Shown here in pieces: positions 10,906 through 44,135 of a stretch of 64,000 nucleotides of DNA. The stretch is from Parabacteroides sp. FAFU027 (lineage in GTDB: Bacteria > Bacteroidota > Bacteroidia > Bacteroidales > UBA7332). The notes under the pieces were generated by a model. That model was not told where the DNA came from and ran no database searches. It was given only the letters and a program-made list of their open reading frames with translations. The first letter of the stretch is position 1. The number at the start of each line of letters is the position of its first letter. The stretch is taken from positions 186,001-250,000 of the forward strand of contig NZ_JAKZKV010000001.1 of NCBI RefSeq assembly GCF_022808675.1, in the 5' to 3' direction. The position numbers were made by a program, and so were the translations under genes.

Positions 10906-12363
10906 ATGAAAATCAAAACACTTCTCACCCCTGCCCTTGCGCTTCTGCTGGCTGCGGGAATCAAGGCCGAAATTACCTTGCCAAAAGTGCTTGGAAGCAA
11001 CATGGTGCTTCAGCGAAACCAATCCGTTCCCGTTTGGGGAAATGCTGATAAAGGCGAAAAAGTCACCGTAAAATTTGCCGGACAAACCAAAACCGCTGTT
11101 AGCGACACGTCCGGTTATTGGAAAGTGATGCTTACACCACTCAAAGCGTCAGAGAAACCTGCATCAATGACGATCAAAGGAAAAAACAAGATCATCCTGA
11201 ATAATATTCTTGTGGGAGATGTATGGTTGTGTTCAGGTCAATCAAATATGGAATACCCCCTGAATAGAAAAACAAAGAAATATCAGGGTCCCAAAGCGAC
11301 TCCCGATGTGGCAGCTGCCGAGCTGAAGAAAACACAACCGGATAATATCCGTTACTTCTACGTGGAAAAGAATTACAAACCCAACGAATATAAAACCAAA
11401 GGCTGGGTAAATGGCAACGACAGCGTCCTTCATAATCTGTCAGCTATCGGATACTTTTTTGCTCAGGAAATACATAAAGAGATCGGTGTACCCATCGGTA
11501 TTATGTCAATATCATGGGGCGGAACCCGCGTGGAACAATGGACACCTTACTGGGCCTACGAACAATCTCCAATCTTTAAAGAACAAGCTTCCAAAAAGGA
11601 TTTTAAGATTGACGGAATGCATCCCGGACAAATGTACAACAGTATGCTGGCACCGGTAATTCCTTTTGCAACCAAAGGAGTACTCTGGTATCAGGGAGAA
11701 TCGAATCTTATGGTACACGATAGCCTGCGCTATTGTGACAAATTTAAACTTATGGTGGACACCTGGCGTAATTTATTTGGCATAAAGAACTGGCCTTTCT
11801 ACTATGTACAGATTGCACCACACTATTATACACATCGAACTAAAGATCGCTTTCCGCATGATGTGGAAACACTGCCCATAACATGGGAAGTACAGTCTCA
11901 ATGTCTCAAAATCCCATCTACAGGTATGGCAGTTACCACTGATCTGGTCGATAGCCTGAAAGATATTCACCCATGGAACAAATGGGATGTGGCCCACCGC
12001 CTTGCATTGATTGCAGCAGCAAAAAGTTATGGAAAAAACATCGAATACTCCGGCCCGGTCTATAAATCAATGCAGGTAATGAATGATAAGATTATCCTGT
12101 CATTCGATCACATTGGCAGCGGGCTGATCAGTAAAGACGGAAAGCCGCTTACCTGGTTCACCATTGCAGGAGAAGATGGTAAGTTTGTACAAGCAGAGGC
12201 AAAAATTGAAAACAATCAGGTAATTGTCTATTCTCAAAATGTTAAATCACCAAAAAATGTCCGCTTCGGATGGCATGAAGAAGCACAATCCAACTTCTTT
12301 AATAAGGAAGGATTGCCGGCATCACCTTTCCGTACTGATGCTCCTACGTGGGAGATGAAATAA
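10906..12363 (+). CDS. Sialate O-acetylesterase-like secreted SGNH hydrolase
   Basis: This is an exported esterase of 485 residues, of the family that removes O-acetyl groups from sialic acid or xylan side chains. The signal peptide is MKIKTLLTPALALLLAAGIKA. A beta-domain follows (LPKVLGSNMVLQRNQSVPVWG, typical of the family). The nucleophile motif is GDVWLCSGQSNMEYP near residue 110, and GVLWYQGESN near 266 is the second conserved block. The C-terminal DIHPWNKWDVAHRLAL carries the catalytic histidine. The reading frame extends 23 codons upstream, but the signal peptide and the promoter favour 10906. Together with the CE2-like gene it gives this region two exported deacetylases. Confidence 0.88.
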   Translation: MKIKTLLTPALALLLAAGIKAEITLPKVLGSNMVLQRNQSVPVWGNADKGEKVTVKFAGQTKTAVSDTSGYWKVMLTPLKASEKPASMTIKGKNKIILNNILVGDVWLCSGQSNMEYPLNRKTKKYQGPKATPDVAAAELKKTQPDNIRYFYVEKNYKPNEYKTKGWVNGNDSVLHNLSAIGYFFAQEIHKEIGVPIGIMSISWGGTRVEQWTPYWAYEQSPIFKEQASKKDFKIDGMHPGQMYNSMLAPVIPFATKGVLWYQGESNLMVHDSLRYCDKFKLMVDTWRNLFGIKNWPFYYVQIAPHYYTHRTKDRFPHDVETLPITWEVQSQCLKIPSTGMAVTTDLVDSLKDIHPWNKWDVAHRLALIAAAKSYGKNIEYSGPVYKSMQVMNDKIILSFDHIGSGLISKDGKPLTWFTIAGEDGKFVQAEAKIENNQVIVYSQNVKSPKNVRFGWHEEAQSNFFNKEGLPASPFRTDAPTWEMK

Positions 12364-12535: not shown

Positions 12536-12661
12536 AGAAGAAATATTCCAGGAAAATCAAATGTATAATGTATCTCTGAATCCCTTAAAATTCATCATCA
12601 TAATGGATAATCCCATCAGTATAAATGAAAAACCGGTTATTAGGATAGGTTCTTTGGGAAT

Positions 12662-13018
12662 GGAAATGGGAAGTTCAATCATCCGAATTTATAGTCCAAT
12701 AGTGAACATATATTAATCATGTTTGGATATTGATAGTTCGACTTTCGATATTGATAAACCAATTATTAATATAGATTAATCCGGTTTGGATATTGGTTAA
12801 TCCTTTTAAGATATGGAACTTCCAACTTTGAATATAGATTAATTATTATTGCGTAGGACTAATACCTTTTTACTGTAGGATAAACCAACTTTGAAAATAG
12901 ATTAATCAATTATCAATATGTATTAATCGTTTTACGATAATGATAAACCGGGAATGGATATATATAATCCGGGAATCAATAATACAAAATCAGGTTTGGA
13001 AAATGATCAGATAGAAAA
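12662..13018. repeat. Degenerate 21-bp tandem repeat array A (17 units)
   Basis: The segment divides into 17 units totalling 357 bp, which is 17 x 21; only two neighbouring units deviate (22 and 20 bp). Units share a loose consensus GGATATnGATnAATCCnnTTT; examples are GGATATTGATAGTTCGACTT at unit 4 and TAATATAGATTAATCCGGTT at unit 6. No reading frame stays open through it and identity between neighbours is low, so it is not a CRISPR array or a recent slippage product. It fills most of the 852-bp gene-free gap 12364-13215, between the esterase terminator and the terminator of the next minus-strand gene. Confidence 0.85.
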
Positions 13019-13121
13019 GCGGATATATGAAACAGCAGATATCCTGTTTCAATCATAAAGGCAGATATAAAAAGTTGAAGTCTCAAAAGGCTCTTATTCT
13101 CATTATACTATCATGAAAGGC

Positions 13122-13162: not shown

Positions 13163-13215
13163 GGACTATCAAGATGCATTATAATCAAAATTGAAAATCA
13201 AAACAGGTGAAAGGG

Positions 13216-13947
13216 TTATTTGTTAAATGAGATATTACTAACAGCTTTGTATTGTGCAGATCCGGCTCCAAAAGCGGATTTTACATAATTCTTAACCGCC
13301 AAACCCACATCCACCAAACCAATACCGTCTTCATACAAGACCTGATCCCTCTTATTGGTATGAGTATCTACCAGTACGCTGGCAGATGTAATCGCCAGAT
13401 TGGCATTCTTGTACTCCACTGATTTTGCTGAAATCGCTTCAATAGTCAAATCGGGTTCGTTGGGCTTATATTCAGGAATTTCTTTGAGAAAAACAACAAG
13501 ACGGTTAAAGTTTGAGGCTTTCCGGTCATACGCAGCCAAATGTAAAGTATTGGATTTGCTTTCCGGGTCAGTTGCATTTTCTGCTGACTCGGTATTATCA
13601 GGCTTCTCGGAACTCCTCTGAGACCGCAATTCACGTATAATACTCTGGAACTGGTCAACGACCTCATTGGAAGCGCCTGATACCTTTACCGCATTGTTGA
13701 TACGGGTAACATACTTATCAAAACCTCCATAGAGTGTTTTCCTGAAGCTTATCGCATTATTCATCAGGACAGTTGCTGTATGGGTTTCCTCTATACATAC
13801 CCCTCCATCCTCTTTTAACTTTGATAAGTTGGAAATCAACAATACACTCCTCGACGGCTGGTATTTTTCTCCAAATGTCTCCACCCGGGAGATCATTTCT
13901 TCCATGCTGGTCACATTTTGTTCGTGTTTGAATTGTGATGAACGCAT
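13216..13947 (-). CDS. Conserved hypothetical protein, 243 residues
   Basis: I do not recognise this protein. It has no signal peptide or membrane segment and looks cytoplasmic. Residues 1-100 are mostly helical in character, 105-130 is a charged low-complexity linker rich in S, E, D and N, and 140-243 form a second region ending in SAQYKAVSNISFNK. The two-part layout with a flexible linker suggests two helical modules. It is transcribed alone, with a TAnnTTTG promoter about 200 bp upstream and a good terminator downstream. It is divergent from the small exported protein at 14433. Confidence 0.7.
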   Translation of the reverse strand: MRSSQFKHEQNVTSMEEMISRVETFGEKYQPSRSVLLISNLSKLKEDGGVCIEETHTATVLMNNAISFRKTLYGGFDKYVTRINNAVKVSGASNEVVDQFQSIIRELRSQRSSEKPDNTESAENATDPESKSNTLHLAAYDRKASNFNRLVVFLKEIPEYKPNEPDLTIEAISAKSVEYKNANLAITSASVLVDTHTNKRDQVLYEDGIGLVDVGLAVKNYVKSAFGAGSAQYKAVSNISFNK

Positions 13948-14178: not shown

Positions 14179-14363
14179 TGATTTAGTGTGTTATATTTTG
14201 TTATACACATTGTTTGAAGTTCATTTTAGCACTAAAACCAATGATAAAAGCTCAATTATTCGTCTTTTTGCTTAATTTAGTTGATAAATATTTTTCAGGA
14301 GTGTTGGTAGTCTGGGGATTTTTTGGGAGATTTGTGGGGAGAAGAAAAATAAATTTATCTTCA

Positions 14364-14396
14364 AAACCTGTCAGGTCTTTAAGACCTGACAGGTTT
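14364..14396. repeat. Perfect palindrome, copy 1 of a four-copy family
   Basis: Two perfect 16-bp arms (14364-14379, 14381-14396) flank a single T. Related palindromes with different arm bases sit at 39874, 50011 and 52262. It lies 37 bp before the ATG at 14433 and could fold into the leader of that gene. Confidence 0.9.
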
Positions 14397-25175: not shown

Positions 25176-25193
25176 AATTCCTGAATATTATAC

Positions 25194-25565
25194 CGTTGAA
25201 GATAGGAACCTTTCGATAGAAGATAGACAGCATTTCTCAGAGATAGTTGGCTTACCGCTCAAGTCCGAAGCCTCTTCGCAGAGGATAGTTGCCAGGTCGA
25301 ATGAGATAGATGGCACTCCGAAGAAGTTAGTTGCCTATTTGCATCAGATAGTTACCTTTCCGAATAACATAGAAGCGACCCCGAACCACTTAGAAGCCTT
25401 ATCGTAGAAGATAGAAGCTATCACGAATGAGTTAGTTGCCTTTTCGGGAAGGTAGTTACCTTTCCGAACAACATAGAAGCTGCCCCGAACCACATAGAAA
25501 TCTTATCGAAGAAGATAGAAGCTACCCCGAATGAGTTAGTTGCCTTTTCGGGAGGTAGCTCAACC
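25194..25565. repeat. Degenerate 21-bp tandem repeat array B (about 18 units)
   Basis: Eighteen consecutive units are mostly 21 bp (11 exactly 21; the others 17-24), with loose consensus CGAAnnAnATAGAAGCCTTTT. Units 9-13 (from 25361) recur as units 14-18 with few changes, a recent duplication of about 104 bp. Stop codons occur in most frames. The array fills the gap between the lipoprotein terminator and the rnfA stop, ending only 2 bp before it. Its consensus shares CGAnnnnGATAnA with array A at 12662. Confidence 0.85.
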
Positions 25566-33166: not shown

Positions 33167-34549
33167 ATGAAAAAGATTTCTATTCTACTGTTAAGTTTCA
33201 TGTGTAGTATGGTTATGATTGCCCAGAATGCTGACAATCCCTGGGCAATAGAAGGCCAGTTTGGTAAAAGCGAATACCGTGGTGACATCCAGAATCAGTA
33301 TTGGAAATGGGATCCATTCTATGCCCTGGGCGGTATTGGCATAAGTAAATACCTCAACAAGTCATTCGATCTGGGAGGCTATTTTTCATTGGGTAAAATC
33401 GGAGCAGAAGTTGGAACGCGTAAATTTCTTGGTGGACGTTGGGACTTAAACCTACTAGGCAAATACAAATTGAACAACGGCAAAATCCTAAGCGAAAACA
33501 GCATTATTGCCCCCTATTTAGCTGCAGGATTAGGCTATGCTGACTATTACAACGGCTTTGGAGGCAACAGTTCAATCTTCCGTACAGGTGTCAATATGAC
33601 GATTCCGCTGGGAGGCGGCATTAAAGTCAATCTATCCAAAAACGTAGCCCTTCAATACCAATTACTGTTCAACTTCAACGAAAGCGACTGGAACGGAGAT
33701 AAACGTTACGATAATAAGATCGATAACTTCCTGAAACACACCGTAGGAATCGTGATTAGCTTCGGTGGTAAAAAAGACTCAGACAAAGACGGCGTATCAG
33801 ATAAACTCGACGCCTGCCCGGGAACTCCGGCGGGTGTGCAGGTTGATGCCAAAGGTTGCCCAATCGACAGTGACGGCGATGGTGTAGCAGACTATCTGGA
33901 TAAATGTCCGAATACCCCCCCCGGTGCGCAGGTTGATGCCAGCGGTTGTCCGATTGATAGCGACAATGACGGTGTTGCCGATTATCTGGATAAATGCCCG
34001 AATACACCTGCCAATGTAAAAGTTGATGCAAAAGGCTGTCCACTTGACAGCGATGATGATGGTGTGGCTGACTACCAGGATCAATGCCCGAACGAAAAAG
34101 GCAAGGCTTCTACCATGGGTTGTCCTGACAGAGACAATGATGGAGTGGCTGATAAAGATGATAAATGCCCTGATGTTGCCGGCCCTGCAAGCAACGGAGG
34201 TTGCCCGGTAGTTGAAAAACAAGGTATCCCGAATCTGTTATTTGCAACAAACCAATATGCAATTACACCCGAACATCAAACCATCCTGAGCGATGTGGTT
34301 AAAACCCTGAATGCAAACAAAGACTCCAAACTTTTGGTTAACGGTCACGCTGACAGCACAGGACCTGATGAATACAACCAGAAACTTTCCGAAAAAAGAG
34401 CAACCTCTGTAAAAGTTTATCTGGTGAAAAAGAAAATTGCCGCAAAACGTATCTCAACAGCCGGATACGGAGAAACCCAACCGGTCGGTGATAATAACAC
34501 TGAAGAAGGCAAAGCTCAAAACAGAAGAGCTGAGTTGCAACTTAAATAA
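33167..34549 (+). CDS. OmpA-family outer membrane protein with TSP3 repeats (copy 1)
   Basis: This 460-residue protein has a signal peptide (MKKISILLLSFMCSMVMIA), an N-terminal beta-barrel (about 20-205), five thrombospondin type 3 calcium-binding repeats (about 210-345; core DSDGDGVADYLDKCPNTP), and an OmpA C-terminal peptidoglycan-binding domain (NGHADSTGPDEYNQKLSEKR). Such proteins tie the outer membrane to the cell wall. The last two repeats are shortened. The start follows an AT-rich leader with no TAnnTTTG box that I could find. A paralogue follows 219 bp downstream with its own terminator. Confidence 0.93.
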   Translation: MKKISILLLSFMCSMVMIAQNADNPWAIEGQFGKSEYRGDIQNQYWKWDPFYALGGIGISKYLNKSFDLGGYFSLGKIGAEVGTRKFLGGRWDLNLLGKYKLNNGKILSENSIIAPYLAAGLGYADYYNGFGGNSSIFRTGVNMTIPLGGGIKVNLSKNVALQYQLLFNFNESDWNGDKRYDNKIDNFLKHTVGIVISFGGKKDSDKDGVSDKLDACPGTPAGVQVDAKGCPIDSDGDGVADYLDKCPNTPPGAQVDASGCPIDSDNDGVADYLDKCPNTPANVKVDAKGCPLDSDDDGVADYQDQCPNEKGKASTMGCPDRDNDGVADKDDKCPDVAGPASNGGCPVVEKQGIPNLLFATNQYAITPEHQTILSDVVKTLNANKDSKLLVNGHADSTGPDEYNQKLSEKRATSVKVYLVKKKIAAKRISTAGYGETQPVGDNNTEEGKAQNRRAELQLK

Positions 34550-34767: not shown

Positions 34768-36171
34768 ATGAAGAAGATTAGCATTTTATTACTGGGTGTA
34801 TTTTGCTCGATAGCCATTTATGCCCAAAACGCAGACAAAAAGTGGGCCATCGAAGCTCTGTTCGGGAAAAACGAGTACAATGGCGACATTGCCAATGACT
34901 ACTTCAAATGGAACAAAACCTTCTACGGAATGGGAGGATTGGGGCTAAACTTCTATCTGGATAAAAATTTCGATGGAGGTTTTCAGGCTACTTATGGAAA
35001 ATATGGTTCCTGGGTTAACTCAACAAGTAATTTTCTGGGAAAGAAGTTTGACCTTTCCGGATTATTGAGATATAAACTCAATAATGGCTATATCCTGCCG
35101 GAGAATAGCTTCTTTGCCCCGTACCTGACTGCTGGGTTTGGTTATGTGAATTACTCTGGTGGCCCCAAGATTTACGAAAGCAACACTGCGATCATTCCAT
35201 TGGGAGTAGGATTAAAATTCAATTTCTCAAAGACCGTGGCATTACAGTACCAATGGCTCTTCAACTTTAATGCGAGCGACCGTCAGGATTTCAAAATGGA
35301 TAACAAAGACGATAACTTCATGAAACACTCCGTGGGACTCGTAATCAGCTTTGGAGGCAAAAAAGACAAAGACAACGACGGTGTACTTGACAAATATGAT
35401 CTTTGTCCGAACACTCCGCTGGGCGTAAAAGTGGATGCCAAAGGTTGTCCGATTGACAGTGACGGCGATGGTGTAGCTGATTATCTGGATAAATGTCCAA
35501 ACACTCCGGCTGGTGTTAAAGTGGATGCGAATGGTTGTCCGCTAGACAGTGACGGTGACGGTGTACCTGACTATCTGGATAAATGCCCGAATACCCCTGC
35601 CGGTGTACAGGTGGATGCAAATGGGTGCCCGATTGATTCTGACGGAGACGGCGTGGCTGATTATCTGGATAAATGTCCTAATACTCCTGCCGGTGTTCAG
35701 GTTGATGCTAACGGTTGCCCGCTGGACCGTGACGGTGACGGTGTGCCTGATTATCTGGATAAATGCCCGGATGTGAAAGGTACAATTGAAAATAAAGGAT
35801 GTCCGGAAATAAAACAAGAGACCAAAGAGGTATTCAAAAGAGCACTACAGGGTATACAGTTTGCCACCGGTAAAGATGTGATCCTGCCGAAATCATTCCC
35901 GATTCTGGATAATGTCGTTTCCATTATGAAAGAAAATCCGGCTTATCAGCTCGACATTAACGGACACACCGACAATGTTGGTAAACCTGAAGCCAACCAG
36001 ATTCTTTCGGAAAAACGTGCAGCAGCAGTGAAGGCTTACCTGGTACAAAAAGGCATCAGTGCTGATCGTTTGATGTCAGCCGGATTCGGGGATAAACAAC
36101 CGGTTGCTGACAACAAAACGGCTGCGGGAAGACAACAAAACAGACGGGTAGAGTTTAAAGTAAACTTCTAA
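34768..36171 (+). CDS. OmpA-family outer membrane protein with TSP3 repeats (copy 2)
   Basis: This is the paralogue of the preceding gene, 467 residues with the same order: signal peptide (MKKISILLLGVFCSIAIYA), barrel domain to about residue 200, five TSP3 repeats of 30 residues (about 205-355), and an OmpA domain (DINGHTDNVGKPEANQILSE). The repeats are more uniform than in copy 1, and the DNA repeats every 90 bp between 35377 and 35780. The OmpA-domain residues D and R that contact diaminopimelate are present. The even repeats suggest more recent repeat exchange. The two copies differ throughout the barrel. Confidence 0.93.
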   Translation: MKKISILLLGVFCSIAIYAQNADKKWAIEALFGKNEYNGDIANDYFKWNKTFYGMGGLGLNFYLDKNFDGGFQATYGKYGSWVNSTSNFLGKKFDLSGLLRYKLNNGYILPENSFFAPYLTAGFGYVNYSGGPKIYESNTAIIPLGVGLKFNFSKTVALQYQWLFNFNASDRQDFKMDNKDDNFMKHSVGLVISFGGKKDKDNDGVLDKYDLCPNTPLGVKVDAKGCPIDSDGDGVADYLDKCPNTPAGVKVDANGCPLDSDGDGVPDYLDKCPNTPAGVQVDANGCPIDSDGDGVADYLDKCPNTPAGVQVDANGCPLDRDGDGVPDYLDKCPDVKGTIENKGCPEIKQETKEVFKRALQGIQFATGKDVILPKSFPILDNVVSIMKENPAYQLDINGHTDNVGKPEANQILSEKRAAAVKAYLVQKGISADRLMSAGFGDKQPVADNKTAAGRQQNRRVEFKVNF

Positions 36172-39906: not shown

Positions 39907-40213
39907 GTACCATCGGTTTGTTCTATCCTACAAAGGTCGGTAAAATCACCGAGCCGGAAAAGCCGAAATAGCAATCTTTTTGAGAATACGCATATCCGGT
40001 AACTTCAAGAATTTTTGCCCTACTTTTTTCATCTCTTCCAAGAGCCTTTTTTAAGGGTAGAAACAATAAAGAAACGCCCTTTTTGCAGCTACCGGCTCCC
40101 TGCGAACGTCCAAATATCACTCTGATATATTAAAAGTAAAAACGGCCAATTTTTGCAAACAAATCGAGTCCATTTCCTATCCCTCCCTTTTTCTATACCA
40201 TCACCGGAGGATA

Positions 40214-40246
40214 CCTAGAGTGTCCCTAGAGGATCCCTAGAGGATC
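40214..40246. repeat. 11-bp tandem repeat, 3 units (CCTAGAGGATC)
   Basis: CCTAGAGTGTC, CCTAGAGGATC, CCTAGAGGATC follow without gaps, and CGGAGGATA just before could be a decayed fourth unit. It lies in the gene-free region 39975-42470. Confidence 0.85.
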
Positions 40247-40530
40247 AATACCGGGAAAAAGACTCATTTTCGAAATCCGACAGTAGCAAAATGTCAAAAA
40301 CAGTCTGACTGATATTCTGAAATAAAACCCGAAGTGAAATCAGCAAAGTCAAACAAATCTCCCCTCCCATTTAAATACTATCCGGAATCAAAGCAAAAGA
40401 TACTATCCATCCAATCCGGAAAACCATACTTTTAAACTGTTATTTTTTGTGGTATATATCATTACAAATCGACACAAAACGCCCACCCATATCAAAAAAC
40501 GACAACAAACACTTATAAACCATCAATAAG

Positions 40531-40585
40531 AGCAGTATCGGAGGAACATCGGAGCAGTATCGGAGCTAGAACGGAGGAGAAGCGA
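40531..40585. repeat. 11-bp tandem repeat, 5 units (AGCAGTATCGG)
   Basis: Units are AGCAGTATCGG, AGGAACATCGG, AGCAGTATCGG, AGCTAGAACGG and AGGAGAAGCGA. The period is exactly 11. The A/G-rich start and CGG end are most conserved. Confidence 0.85.
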
Positions 40586-40800
40586 AGCTGGCTGCTTTTC
40601 AGGTGAATTCTCTCTGATAGTACAAATACTCTCAAGAGTAAGAACCCAATTTGTTATATGGTCAAGCTCCTTAGGATTGCGAATACAATAAAAGTCGATG
40701 CGCCCTAAACAAAAAATGAATATCCCGATATACACCTAAGCCGTTTGACGAAACTCATATTACGGTGCGCTGCACCTAATGTTGAGTGGTATTATCCATA

Positions 40801-40916
40801 TTCTACAAATATTATGGTGCTCTGCACCAATTATCATCATATAAAGGGACAGAGTCCCGTAATATTTGTAGAAAAATTGAATCCCCGGACAACAAAGGTG
40901 CAGAGCACCATAATAT
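40801..40916. repeat. Nested inverted repeats
   Basis: A perfect 20-bp inverted pair (40809-40828 and 40897-40916) and a 14-bp pair (40801-40814 and 40860-40873) interlock around a small GGGAC/GTCCC hairpin at 40845. A third copy of the GGTGCnCTGCACC core is at 40774. No coding sequence lies inside. It looks like a miniature inverted-repeat element or two overlapping ones. Confidence 0.7.
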
Positions 40917-41233
40917 AAGACTCCGGTTAGATTAATAGGTGATTATACGGATATTCATAAACAAAATGTTTTTTGGTAATAGAAGTTGCGCGTGGATATA
41001 AACAGAAAAAGCGTTCTTTGATGTAGGTAGTATGAATGCTCAATGAGGCCGAACAGTGCCCATTGATGAAAATGAGAAAATAATCGCTTCGCACCATTTA
41101 GCCCTTCTGGTCTGTCCCCATTCATAAAATAAGTGCGAATCCTCAGGATTGTGCAAAACAATCAATTGCAAAAATCAAAAAGAGTCAGGAAAACGTATCT
41201 GTCGCAATGTACACAAGTGTGACATCAGCGGAA

Positions 41234-41501
41234 ATGTATATATCCCATCGGGGATATGTTAAATTTCCACTGGAAATGTGACTATCCCAAACGGGATATC
41301 ATAAATTCATACCGGAAACAGGCTTGTAACATGTGGAGTATCTTAAAATGTCTGAAGAAACAGACGTATCCCACGTTACACAAGCCCGTCATCACTAAAA
41401 ACACACGTATCCCACATGGGATATATGCGTCAACTGCGGAAATTTGTAATATCCCATGTGGGATAAATGGAGTCATCACTGATGATAGGCATATCCCCGA
41501 G
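41234..41501. repeat. Degenerate 42-bp (2 x 21) tandem repeat array C
   Basis: Six units of 42, 42, 42, 41, 41 and 43 bp plus a partial seventh. Each unit has two halves of about 21 bp, GAAATGTGnCTATCCCAnnnG and GGATATnnTnAATTnCnACTG. The CCCAnnnGGG centre makes small palindromes in four units. A short open frame overlaps it but has a repeat-derived sequence and is not a credible gene. Its period links it to arrays A and B. Confidence 0.8.
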
Positions 41502-42274
41502 TAAAATGCAAAAATATCCGGTCGATCAGTTATTTCCCAGATTCAAATTGACTTTTCTATAGATGATGCCGTATTTCTCCTTAAAAGTTTTGGCTCTCAT
41601 ATCGGATATGAAAACGTAAAAAAGCAATGTGTAATCAAGGCGGTTCTGAATTCTATCGGGACTGCCACTACGGTACCGAAAATCCCAAAAGTATATCCGT
41701 CAGGGGCATTGGGAATATTTAGTCGAATGTCCTTTTGTTTTAGTAAGGCAGAAGGCCTTGTTTTTGGCTACGCAGGCCGGAGCCACACGCCGTACATCCT
41801 CATGCGTTTTGTGATTGTTAGTTAACCAGGTTACGCAGGACGGAGGCGTGCCCAAATCCCAGACTGCTTGTAGCTGTCGTATTCAAAAAGCTCAAACACT
41901 AAAATCAATAAAGAATCAAAACAACGCCATCAGGTGTTGCGGTTTTTAACCGCAATTATCTTGTATTGGAATCAACGGTTAAATCAGGCTGATCGGGACT
42001 CTGCTCCCATAAGAAAATGCGATAAATGAAAGGATGCTCCTTTTTTCATCGAATGAACAGTAAAGGACTTAACGCTGACAGATCTATAGACGCTGTCAGG
42101 TTATCGGTATACGATCATTGGGCGGTTAATTAGGCGGACTGGTACTCGCATCCCTCCAACTTCGTCAGCGTGCTTTCACCTAACAGCGTTATTAAAAACA
42201 GCATCACGCCTCACAACCATTATCATTCTGATAGTAAAAACCGGGAAACCCGACTATTTTTATCAAATCACCTA

Positions 42275-42340
42275 TATGTGGACAACTGTGGAGCATATGT
42301 GGAGTTGCTGTTGAGTTGCTGTGGAGGAAGAGCGGAGTTG
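42275..42340. repeat. 11-bp tandem repeat, 6 units (CTGTGGAGTTG)
   Basis: TATGTGGACAA, CTGTGGAGCAT, ATGTGGAGTTG, CTGTTGAGTTG, CTGTGGAGGAA and GAGCGGAGTTG follow in exact 11-bp steps. TGTGGA is also the core of the reverse DnaA box (TGTGGATAA), but no unit is a full match. It ends 130 bp before the recombinase start. The remaining sequence from 41502 to 42274 holds nothing I can identify. Confidence 0.88.
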
Positions 42341-42470
42341 CCCGTTTTAAAAATTAGAGATATGGGGGACAAAATGACAAACACACTGGAGCCAGGGCTA
42401 TTATTTATCCATTAGCCATTCCACCCAATTTTATATTTATTATTTTTGTATACAACCAACCTGACACACC

Positions 42471-44135
42471 ATGAAAGCCAGCAAAATCACCCACCGAAAC
42501 GAAATACGCATCCGGATAGATTTTCCATACAATCAGGAAATAGCGCTCAAATTAAAACGAATACCCGATTGCAAATGGAGCAGAACACTGAATGCCTGGC
42601 ATATTCCTTATACGAAAGAGGCTTTCGAAAGGTTGAAAGAGTTATTTCCGGAAATAGAATATCCCCGGCCAGAACAATCTGATCCTGAAACCCCGAAAAA
42701 CAGTCAGCAAAGGATAACGAAAATAGAAAAATCAGGGGAAATTAATACAAACGCAAACAATCCTCCTCTTAAACCAACTAACACATCCAACACAATCACA
42801 ATTGAACTCTCCGATAAACAAATCAGTATCAAAATGCCCAAAAACGAGGTGGATATCCAATTCATTCGATCATTCAGGTATTTCCGATGGAATAAGAATA
42901 CATTTTGCTGGTTAATCCCCAATTACAGGGATAATATTGACAAACTGAAAGCCTATTTCGGCAATCGAAAGATAGAAATCATTGAACACACATCTTCTAT
43001 CCAGCCATTAAACTCCACACAACCAACGTATAATAAAGACCAAATGCTGGTCATCAGCTCCTTCAGGCGCAAATTACGGATCTATTTCAGCTACAACAAA
43101 GATCTGGCAGCCCGAATCAGACAAATTACACTCAGCAGTTGGAACAGCGATATACGATGTTGGGAACTTCCTTATTCTGAAAAATTTTTGACTGAAATCA
43201 AAGACCTGGCACAACAGAACTCTCTCGAATGGATTTATCGAGAAGAAAACAAAGGCAAAATTATACCACGTAAATCCCGGTTGGATATCAGAAATTACAA
43301 AACCTGCCCGATTGAATACATCGAAAAGCTCAAAGAGCTAAGATACAGCCAACACACGATCAACTCATACACTGACCTGTTCGAAGAGTTTATCAATCAT
43401 TATGAAGCTCATCAACCGGAAAATATCACCGAGCCGATGATCATCGACTTCCTGCGCTATCTGGTAAATGAGCGGAAAATATCCACCTCCTACCAGAACC
43501 AGTCTATCAATGCTATCAAGTTTTACTACGAAAGGGTGCTAGGTGGAAATCGAAAAATCTATATCATCGACCGCCCCCGCGAAGAGAAGTACCTACCCGA
43601 AGTACTTAGTACAGAAGAAGTCACGATGATACTGAATGCCACCGAAAACCTTAAGCATAAAGCCATCCTGATGACTATATATTCTGCCGGACTGCGTATT
43701 AGCGAAGCCATTGACCTGAAGATTAAAGATATCGACAGCCAACGTATGCAGATAAGGGTGGAGCAAGGCAAAGGAAAAAAAGACCGATACACTTTGCTGG
43801 GATATAAGACTTTGGAAATACTGCGAAAATATTTTCTTCAATACAAACCAAAAGTATGGTTGTTTGAAGGTGCGAATGGAGAGCAGTATTCAAGAAGCAG
43901 CATCAAAAAAATTCTCAAAGCAGCTGTAGCTAAAACCAATATTAAAAAGCATGTCACCGTTCACACATTACGACATAGCTTTGCAACACATCTACTTGAA
44001 GCAGGCACGGATCTTCGTTATATACAAAATCTACTTGGTCATGAAAGTAGTAAAACAACAGAAATATATACACACATAACAACTAAAGGGTTTGAGCAAA
44101 TAAAAAGCCCATTAGACCAATTAAACATCACATAA
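42471..44135 (+). CDS. Tyrosine recombinase with three N-terminal HARP-like repeats
   Basis: This 554-residue protein joins a C-terminal tyrosine recombinase (about 285-554) to a long N-terminus. Catalytic residues are R409 (SAGLRISEA), K434 (QGKGKKDRY), H498 and R501 (HTLRHSFATHLLEAG), H524 (LLGHESS) and Y533 (TEIYTHI), all present. Residues 285-365 are the SAM-like core-binding domain. The first 256 residues hold three repeats of about 60 (10-60, 108-166, 190-247), each with strand-helix-W-W-x-(I/L)P: for example RIDFPYNQEIALKLK and WHIPY. They resemble HARP-type beta-alpha domains, probably for DNA binding. I see no IntI-specific insertion between K434 and H498. Directly downstream are two attC-bounded cassettes. 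Confidence 0.85.
   Translation: MKASKITHRNEIRIRIDFPYNQEIALKLKRIPDCKWSRTLNAWHIPYTKEAFERLKELFPEIEYPRPEQSDPETPKNSQQRITKIEKSGEINTNANNPPLKPTNTSNTITIELSDKQISIKMPKNEVDIQFIRSFRYFRWNKNTFCWLIPNYRDNIDKLKAYFGNRKIEIIEHTSSIQPLNSTQPTYNKDQMLVISSFRRKLRIYFSYNKDLAARIRQITLSSWNSDIRCWELPYSEKFLTEIKDLAQQNSLEWIYREENKGKIIPRKSRLDIRNYKTCPIEYIEKLKELRYSQHTINSYTDLFEEFINHYEAHQPENITEPMIIDFLRYLVNERKISTSYQNQSINAIKFYYERVLGGNRKIYIIDRPREEKYLPEVLSTEEVTMILNATENLKHKAILMTIYSAGLRISEAIDLKIKDIDSQRMQIRVEQGKGKKDRYTLLGYKTLEILRKYFLQYKPKVWLFEGANGEQYSRSSIKKILKAAVAKTNIKKHVTVHTLRHSFATHLLEAGTDLRYIQNLLGHESSKTTEIYTHITTKGFEQIKSPLDQLNIT

Follow-up and report, generated by a model that had tools for sequence, protein, structure and literature searches.

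What holds a row of only half-identical DNA units in exact 21-bp register between two genes is the question raised by array A, an intergenic repeat in the 64,000-nucleotide stretch of Parabacteroides sp. FAFU027 DNA that was analysed (the window). Array A is built from about 21 units, each of 21 bp and degenerate, with a consensus of about GGATATTGATAAATCAATTTT; two kinds of unit, GATATTGATAAACC and ATATAGATTAATCC, keep returning in a 63-bp higher-order pattern. The motif is non-palindromic, of the GATAT...AATCC type, and returns every 21 bp, which is about two helical turns. The preliminary description had placed 17 x 21 bp of poorly conserved units at 12662-13018. A 21-bp peak above shuffled sequence is present there: the identity at lags of 21, 42 and 63 is 0.509, 0.489 and 0.599, respectively, while 2000 first-order Markov shuffles give 0.30 (z 7.5, 6.8 and 10.2). 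The 21-bp units and their low identity (~50%) were borne out, however, the coordinates proved too short and the array really spans 12599-13039. When periods of 10-31 were tested on array A, only 14 and 28 stood out besides 21, and the lag-7 signal is weak (0.374; 21 = 3 x 7). A chain fit determined that array A has 21 units and that 20/20 steps are exactly 21 bp. The weak outermost units leave an uncertainty of 1-2 units at the edges, and the array was missed by Tandem Repeats Finder (TRF) because its units are too degenerate.

Table 1. Positions of array A, its neighbouring genes and array B in the window
Feature	Position	Strand	Basis
SASA-type acetylesterase (PF03629), upstream neighbour	10906..12363	+	Pfam hit 1.2e-17
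Array A	12599..13039, core 12703-12996	.	autocorrelation, unit table, chain fit
17 units of the preliminary description, within array A	12662..13018	.	mean pairwise unit identity 0.498 vs 0.299 (sd 0.008) shuffled
243-aa protein, no known family, downstream neighbour	13216..13947	-	no Pfam hit
Array B, second 21-bp intergenic array, unit about GATAGAAGCTACCCCGAATGA	25188..25560	.	repeat scans, chain fit

Array A lies in a convergent gap, in which the SASA gene ends at 12363, 236 bp before the array, and the gene for the 243-aa protein ends at 13216. Distant homologues of the 243-aa protein are encoded at other places in this genome and also in relatives. Array B also occupies a convergent gap, its unit differs from that of array A, and it features a 104-bp higher-order repeat; its chain fit includes off-period steps of 19, 20 and 23 bp. 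The window holds further repeats. Tandem arrays of 11 bp, GAGGATCCCTA, ATCGGAGCAAC and TGTGGAGTTGC, are located at 40207-40246, 40530-40576 and 42274-42326 in one long gap (39974-42471), which also contains an array of 41/42-bp period with the palindrome ATATCCCAnnnGGGATAT at 41164-41500. Related 11-bp arrays are found elsewhere in the genome, several of them in divergent gaps (L074, L013). A long palindrome, AAACCTGTCAGGTCTTTAAGACCTGACAGGTTT, at 14362-14396 has further matches in a sister contig and is probably a dispersed element. TRF detected 90-bp tandem repeats at 33833-34092 and 35404-35769, which by sequence resemble coding calcium-binding (thrombospondin type 3-like) repeats.

The earlier reading of array A as non-coding agrees with 7-16 stops per frame in all six frames. 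As RNA, either strand of the array folds no better than chance (z -0.9 and -0.3), and a comparison with Rfam gave no match for the arrays of the window or of the four loci tested. The proposal that the repeat might produce DNA curvature failed, as the bend predicted for array A with a wedge model equals that of its shuffles (z 0.1). Among 13 arrays for which curvature was predicted, only L082, L011 and L024 are clearly bent. A CRISPR array was also rejected, the units being contiguous, 50% identical and without a constant repeat. With no open frame, RNA folding at chance and uncurved DNA, the simplest functional reading of array A is a sequence-specific recognition of its DNA, and a protein bound on one DNA face, as had been suggested, would be compatible with this.

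Array A belongs to a class of intergenic DNA arrays that is specific to the lineage. A survey of 851 kb sampled from this genome, in which intergenic DNA was scanned for periods of 8-50 at z >= 6, revealed 47-49 periodic windows, and none were found in five dinucleotide-shuffled sets. The period is 11, 21-23 or 41-44 bp in 45/49 of these windows. Extending the scan to a period of 120 adds periods of 46-47, 63, 76, 83 and 101, and none at 31-32 bp (three turns) or 52-53 bp (five turns) in the 851 kb. Merging of neighbouring windows reduced those with periods of 21-23 and 41-44 bp to about 27 arrays, which extrapolates to the order of 150 arrays in the whole genome. Chain fits in 17 arrays, two of which have a period of 23, determined that 187/195 steps are exact. 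From array to array the units mostly have unrelated sequences, as in GTCCCAAGTAGGAC, CGACTTCAAGTCG, CTGCAAAATGCAG and ATTGTTTGACGAA, and for the unit of array A the genome has one further clear locus (C3:81768-81992). Mostly unrelated sequences at nearly equal spacing suggest that the spacing itself matters, so that the initial idea of spacing conserved over sequence extends to the class. The units are more dyad-symmetric than column-permuted units (combined P 3e-14), and many arrays of the class are palindromic, however, the dyad test on array A itself is negative (P 0.29). No clear bias was seen in the orientation of the gaps that hold the arrays.

Some arrays change their palindrome along their length. 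The 41-bp arrays at L017 (17230-17722) and L018 (9090-9408) feature a palindrome that switches between CTACAnnnTGTAG and CTGCAnnnTGCAG, and at L017 both palindrome arms changed together within one array. The 23-bp array at L075 (7994-8177) goes from TTCCCGAT/ATTGGGAA to AATCACAC/GTGTGATT and is palindromic throughout; its in-array covariation exceeds that of all 200 shuffles.

The sister species (G002; JAUZOF010000089.1, a MAG labelled Bacteroidota bacterium) permits a comparison of 11 arrays with those of the present genome (G000). Five differences in array length are whole units (21, 21, 63, 41 and 46 bp). Indels of other sizes number 5 in the arrays (2508 bp) and 58 in the non-coding flanks (2521 bp), a contrast in which some flanks align poorly and of which up to about half may be ascertainment because the arrays were chosen as being in register in G000. 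A recount on seven well-aligned loci gave 0 indels in 1530 bp of arrays and 26 in 1929 bp of flanks. Substitutions follow the unit columns, with 3.4% change in unit-shared columns, 8.6% in intermediate columns and 13.2% in variable columns (P 3e-13 for 3.4% vs 13.2%), and the 4-fold sites of three neighbouring genes differ by 20-23% between the two species. Homogenisation among units could contribute to the conservation of shared columns and could erase indels. Compensatory changes in the dyad arms between species number 4 vs about 1.4 expected, with lower arm rates in controls too, and the arms are not more clearly conserved than inverted repeats in control sequence.

The same gap in the sister species carries array A, with a left flank that is unalignable. 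The two copies show 5 differences in 294 bases (1.7%), a near-identity that regional recombination may explain because the low divergence does not stop at the array but extends over the 3' part of the gene next to it (13201-13500, 7/300). The gap of array B in the sister species is without such an array and has a 337-aa ORF on the + strand instead. Arrays that adjoin pta and rnpB are absent in a relative of the same genus (G001) and one of the same family (G003), so that they are not needed for those genes. These absences and that of array B make individual arrays look young and suggest that they turn over. The class has a limited range: stretches of G001 and G003 contain arrays of comparable period, a single array (23 bp) turned up in 342 kb drawn from nine further families of the order, and none at these periods in 200 kb of E. 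coli.

A DNA-binding role is the likeliest explanation of the arrays. More specifically, the arrays may be DNA-level platforms of protein sites kept on one face of the helix, a tentative reading to which somewhat less than an even chance is given. In this mechanism a short array-specific site, often a dyad, would repeat at 21 bp (two turns), and in other arrays at 23, 41-44 or 11 bp. The double-stranded array would serve as the platform on which a protein, probably dimeric, occupies successive sites on the same face. Whole units would be gained and lost through slippage or unequal exchange, phase-breaking indels would be removed, and binding may affect the neighbouring genes or the nucleoid. 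The exact spacing at half-identical units, the few phase-breaking indels and the conserved shared columns favour an array of protein sites spaced by two turns, and the dyad enrichment in the units is expected for dimer sites. Selection on helical phase, as it was put forward for array A, is backed for the class by the clustering of periods and the depletion of non-unit indels, but the missing 31-32 and 52-53 bp periods speak against a pure helical-phase rule, as do the 23-bp arrays, which would lose phase if a turn is 10.5 bp. Helical phase alone explains neither the missing three-turn class nor the 23-bp arrays, unless longer periods arise by doubling of the two-turn unit. A broader proposal, speculative and rather unlikely, is that the roughly 150 arrays are free to vary in sequence and selected for helical spacing (two turns, doubled to four), with a reader protein or family that would sense spacing and symmetry over sequence.

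The main competing explanation, a doubtful one that nevertheless has to be taken seriously, is that the arrays are neutral or nearly neutral minisatellites without a function. Slippage or unequal exchange would favour duplications of ~21 bp, and homogenisation would keep both the register and the shared columns. Length changes by whole units, higher-order repeats, many unrelated unit sequences and gap orientations without strong bias are all consistent with this, as are the youth and lineage specificity of the arrays illustrated at pta and rnpB in G001 and G003. However, minisatellite dynamics leave unexplained why unrelated sequences share periods of 21-23, 41-44 and 11 bp, and array A holds its 21-bp step throughout despite a unit identity of only 50%. 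The change at shared columns is also far below that at 4-fold sites.

An origin of the arrays as REP/BIME- or MITE-like elements, which are mobile or dispersed and non-autonomous, is fairly improbable. Palindromic units would have spread and then been tandemly amplified, possibly by a transposase acting in trans. The often palindromic units of the class would suit this origin, as would the second locus of the array A unit and the recurrence of several array units at 2-5 places in the sister genome, and a MITE with 23-nt tandem repeats in Porphyromonas gingivalis (BrickBuilt; PMC4596501) provides a precedent. Against it, none of the 8 Y1 transposase-type genes in the genome has a 21-23 or 41-44 bp array within 1.5 kb, and array A is not palindromic.

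Structured RNA, with transcribed arrays whose units fold as tandem hairpins, is very unlikely. On both strands, folding of the arrays at L022, L017, L085 and L075 is far superior to that of their shuffles (z -8 to -13), and a few arrays (L075, L084) show covariation between units, but array A does no better than chance on either strand, the arrays tested have no Rfam match, and separate hairpins are not expected to need exact spacing. Least credible is a decayed or recoded gene for a protein of seven-residue repeats (21 bp = 7 codons): the units in frame with the ATG at 12561 read as degenerate heptapeptides (about D-I-D-K-P-I-I) and the most conserved columns of array A are second codon positions (0.72 vs 0.58), yet one frame of array A has up to 16 stops vs 11.7 expected by chance, TAA recurs at a fixed place of the unit in both arrays of its family, and the 23, 41, 43 and 44 bp periods of other arrays keep no frame. 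An origin through DRT10-type reverse transcriptases, which are described in repeat synthesis (PMC12632851), was dropped because PF00078 finds one reverse transcriptase in the genome and this best matches general reverse transcriptase models.

If selection keeps spacing and not sequence, the arrays proposed here as phased protein sites would be a natural experiment on how helical phase is recognised in bacterial chromosomes, one that would offer dozens of independent sequence backgrounds within one genome. Even if the arrays are neutral, tandem duplications near 21, 42 and 11 bp would indicate an unexplained preference of slippage or repair. Most periodic DNA repeats were left without an explanation in a survey of 7006 genomes, which reported heptamers as the commonest intergenic tandem repeats (PMC6344855).

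No description of this array class was found in the literature searched, which covered few subscription papers, and the nearest systems are BrickBuilt, REP/BIME elements and heptamer arrays. As described in their papers, none of these joins unit sequences that change from array to array with a common spacing. BrickBuilt is found at 19 loci with one consensus 23-nt minisatellite unit and carries terminal inverted repeats of the IS5 type. The present arrays are similar in having a tandem unit near two helical turns, many loci per genome and the same phylum, however, they mostly have their own unit, with periods of 11, 21-23 and 41-44, and a single consensus at many loci is not seen for array A, with its one other clear locus. 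REP/BIME elements of the GTAG/CGTC families are tagged consensus families associated with RAYT transposases (PMC3733652). Both kinds are dispersed intergenic units that are often palindromic and sometimes tandem, but the sequences here vary between arrays and the Y1 genes are unlinked to them: a repeat of 21-23 or 41-44 bp flanks 0/8 Y1_Tnp genes (1.5 kb flanks). Array A also differs from a REP-type palindromic unit with a conserved stem in its dyad test and RNA folding, as given above. Intergenic heptamer repeats are exemplified by TAACTGA arrays (PMC4679880). They resemble the present arrays as non-coding tandem repeats, and the weak lag-7 signal of array A is a further likeness, however, the 21-bp units here generally have little 7-bp substructure and occur beside units of 23, 41 and 43 bp. 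Plasmid iterons and centromere (parC-type) arrays are direct repeats with sites that are spaced by helical turns and cooperatively bound. The present arrays differ in that they lack an adjacent initiator or partition gene, are found by the dozen in the chromosome and have differing sequences; array A shares with iterons the fixed helical-turn spacing of its sites.
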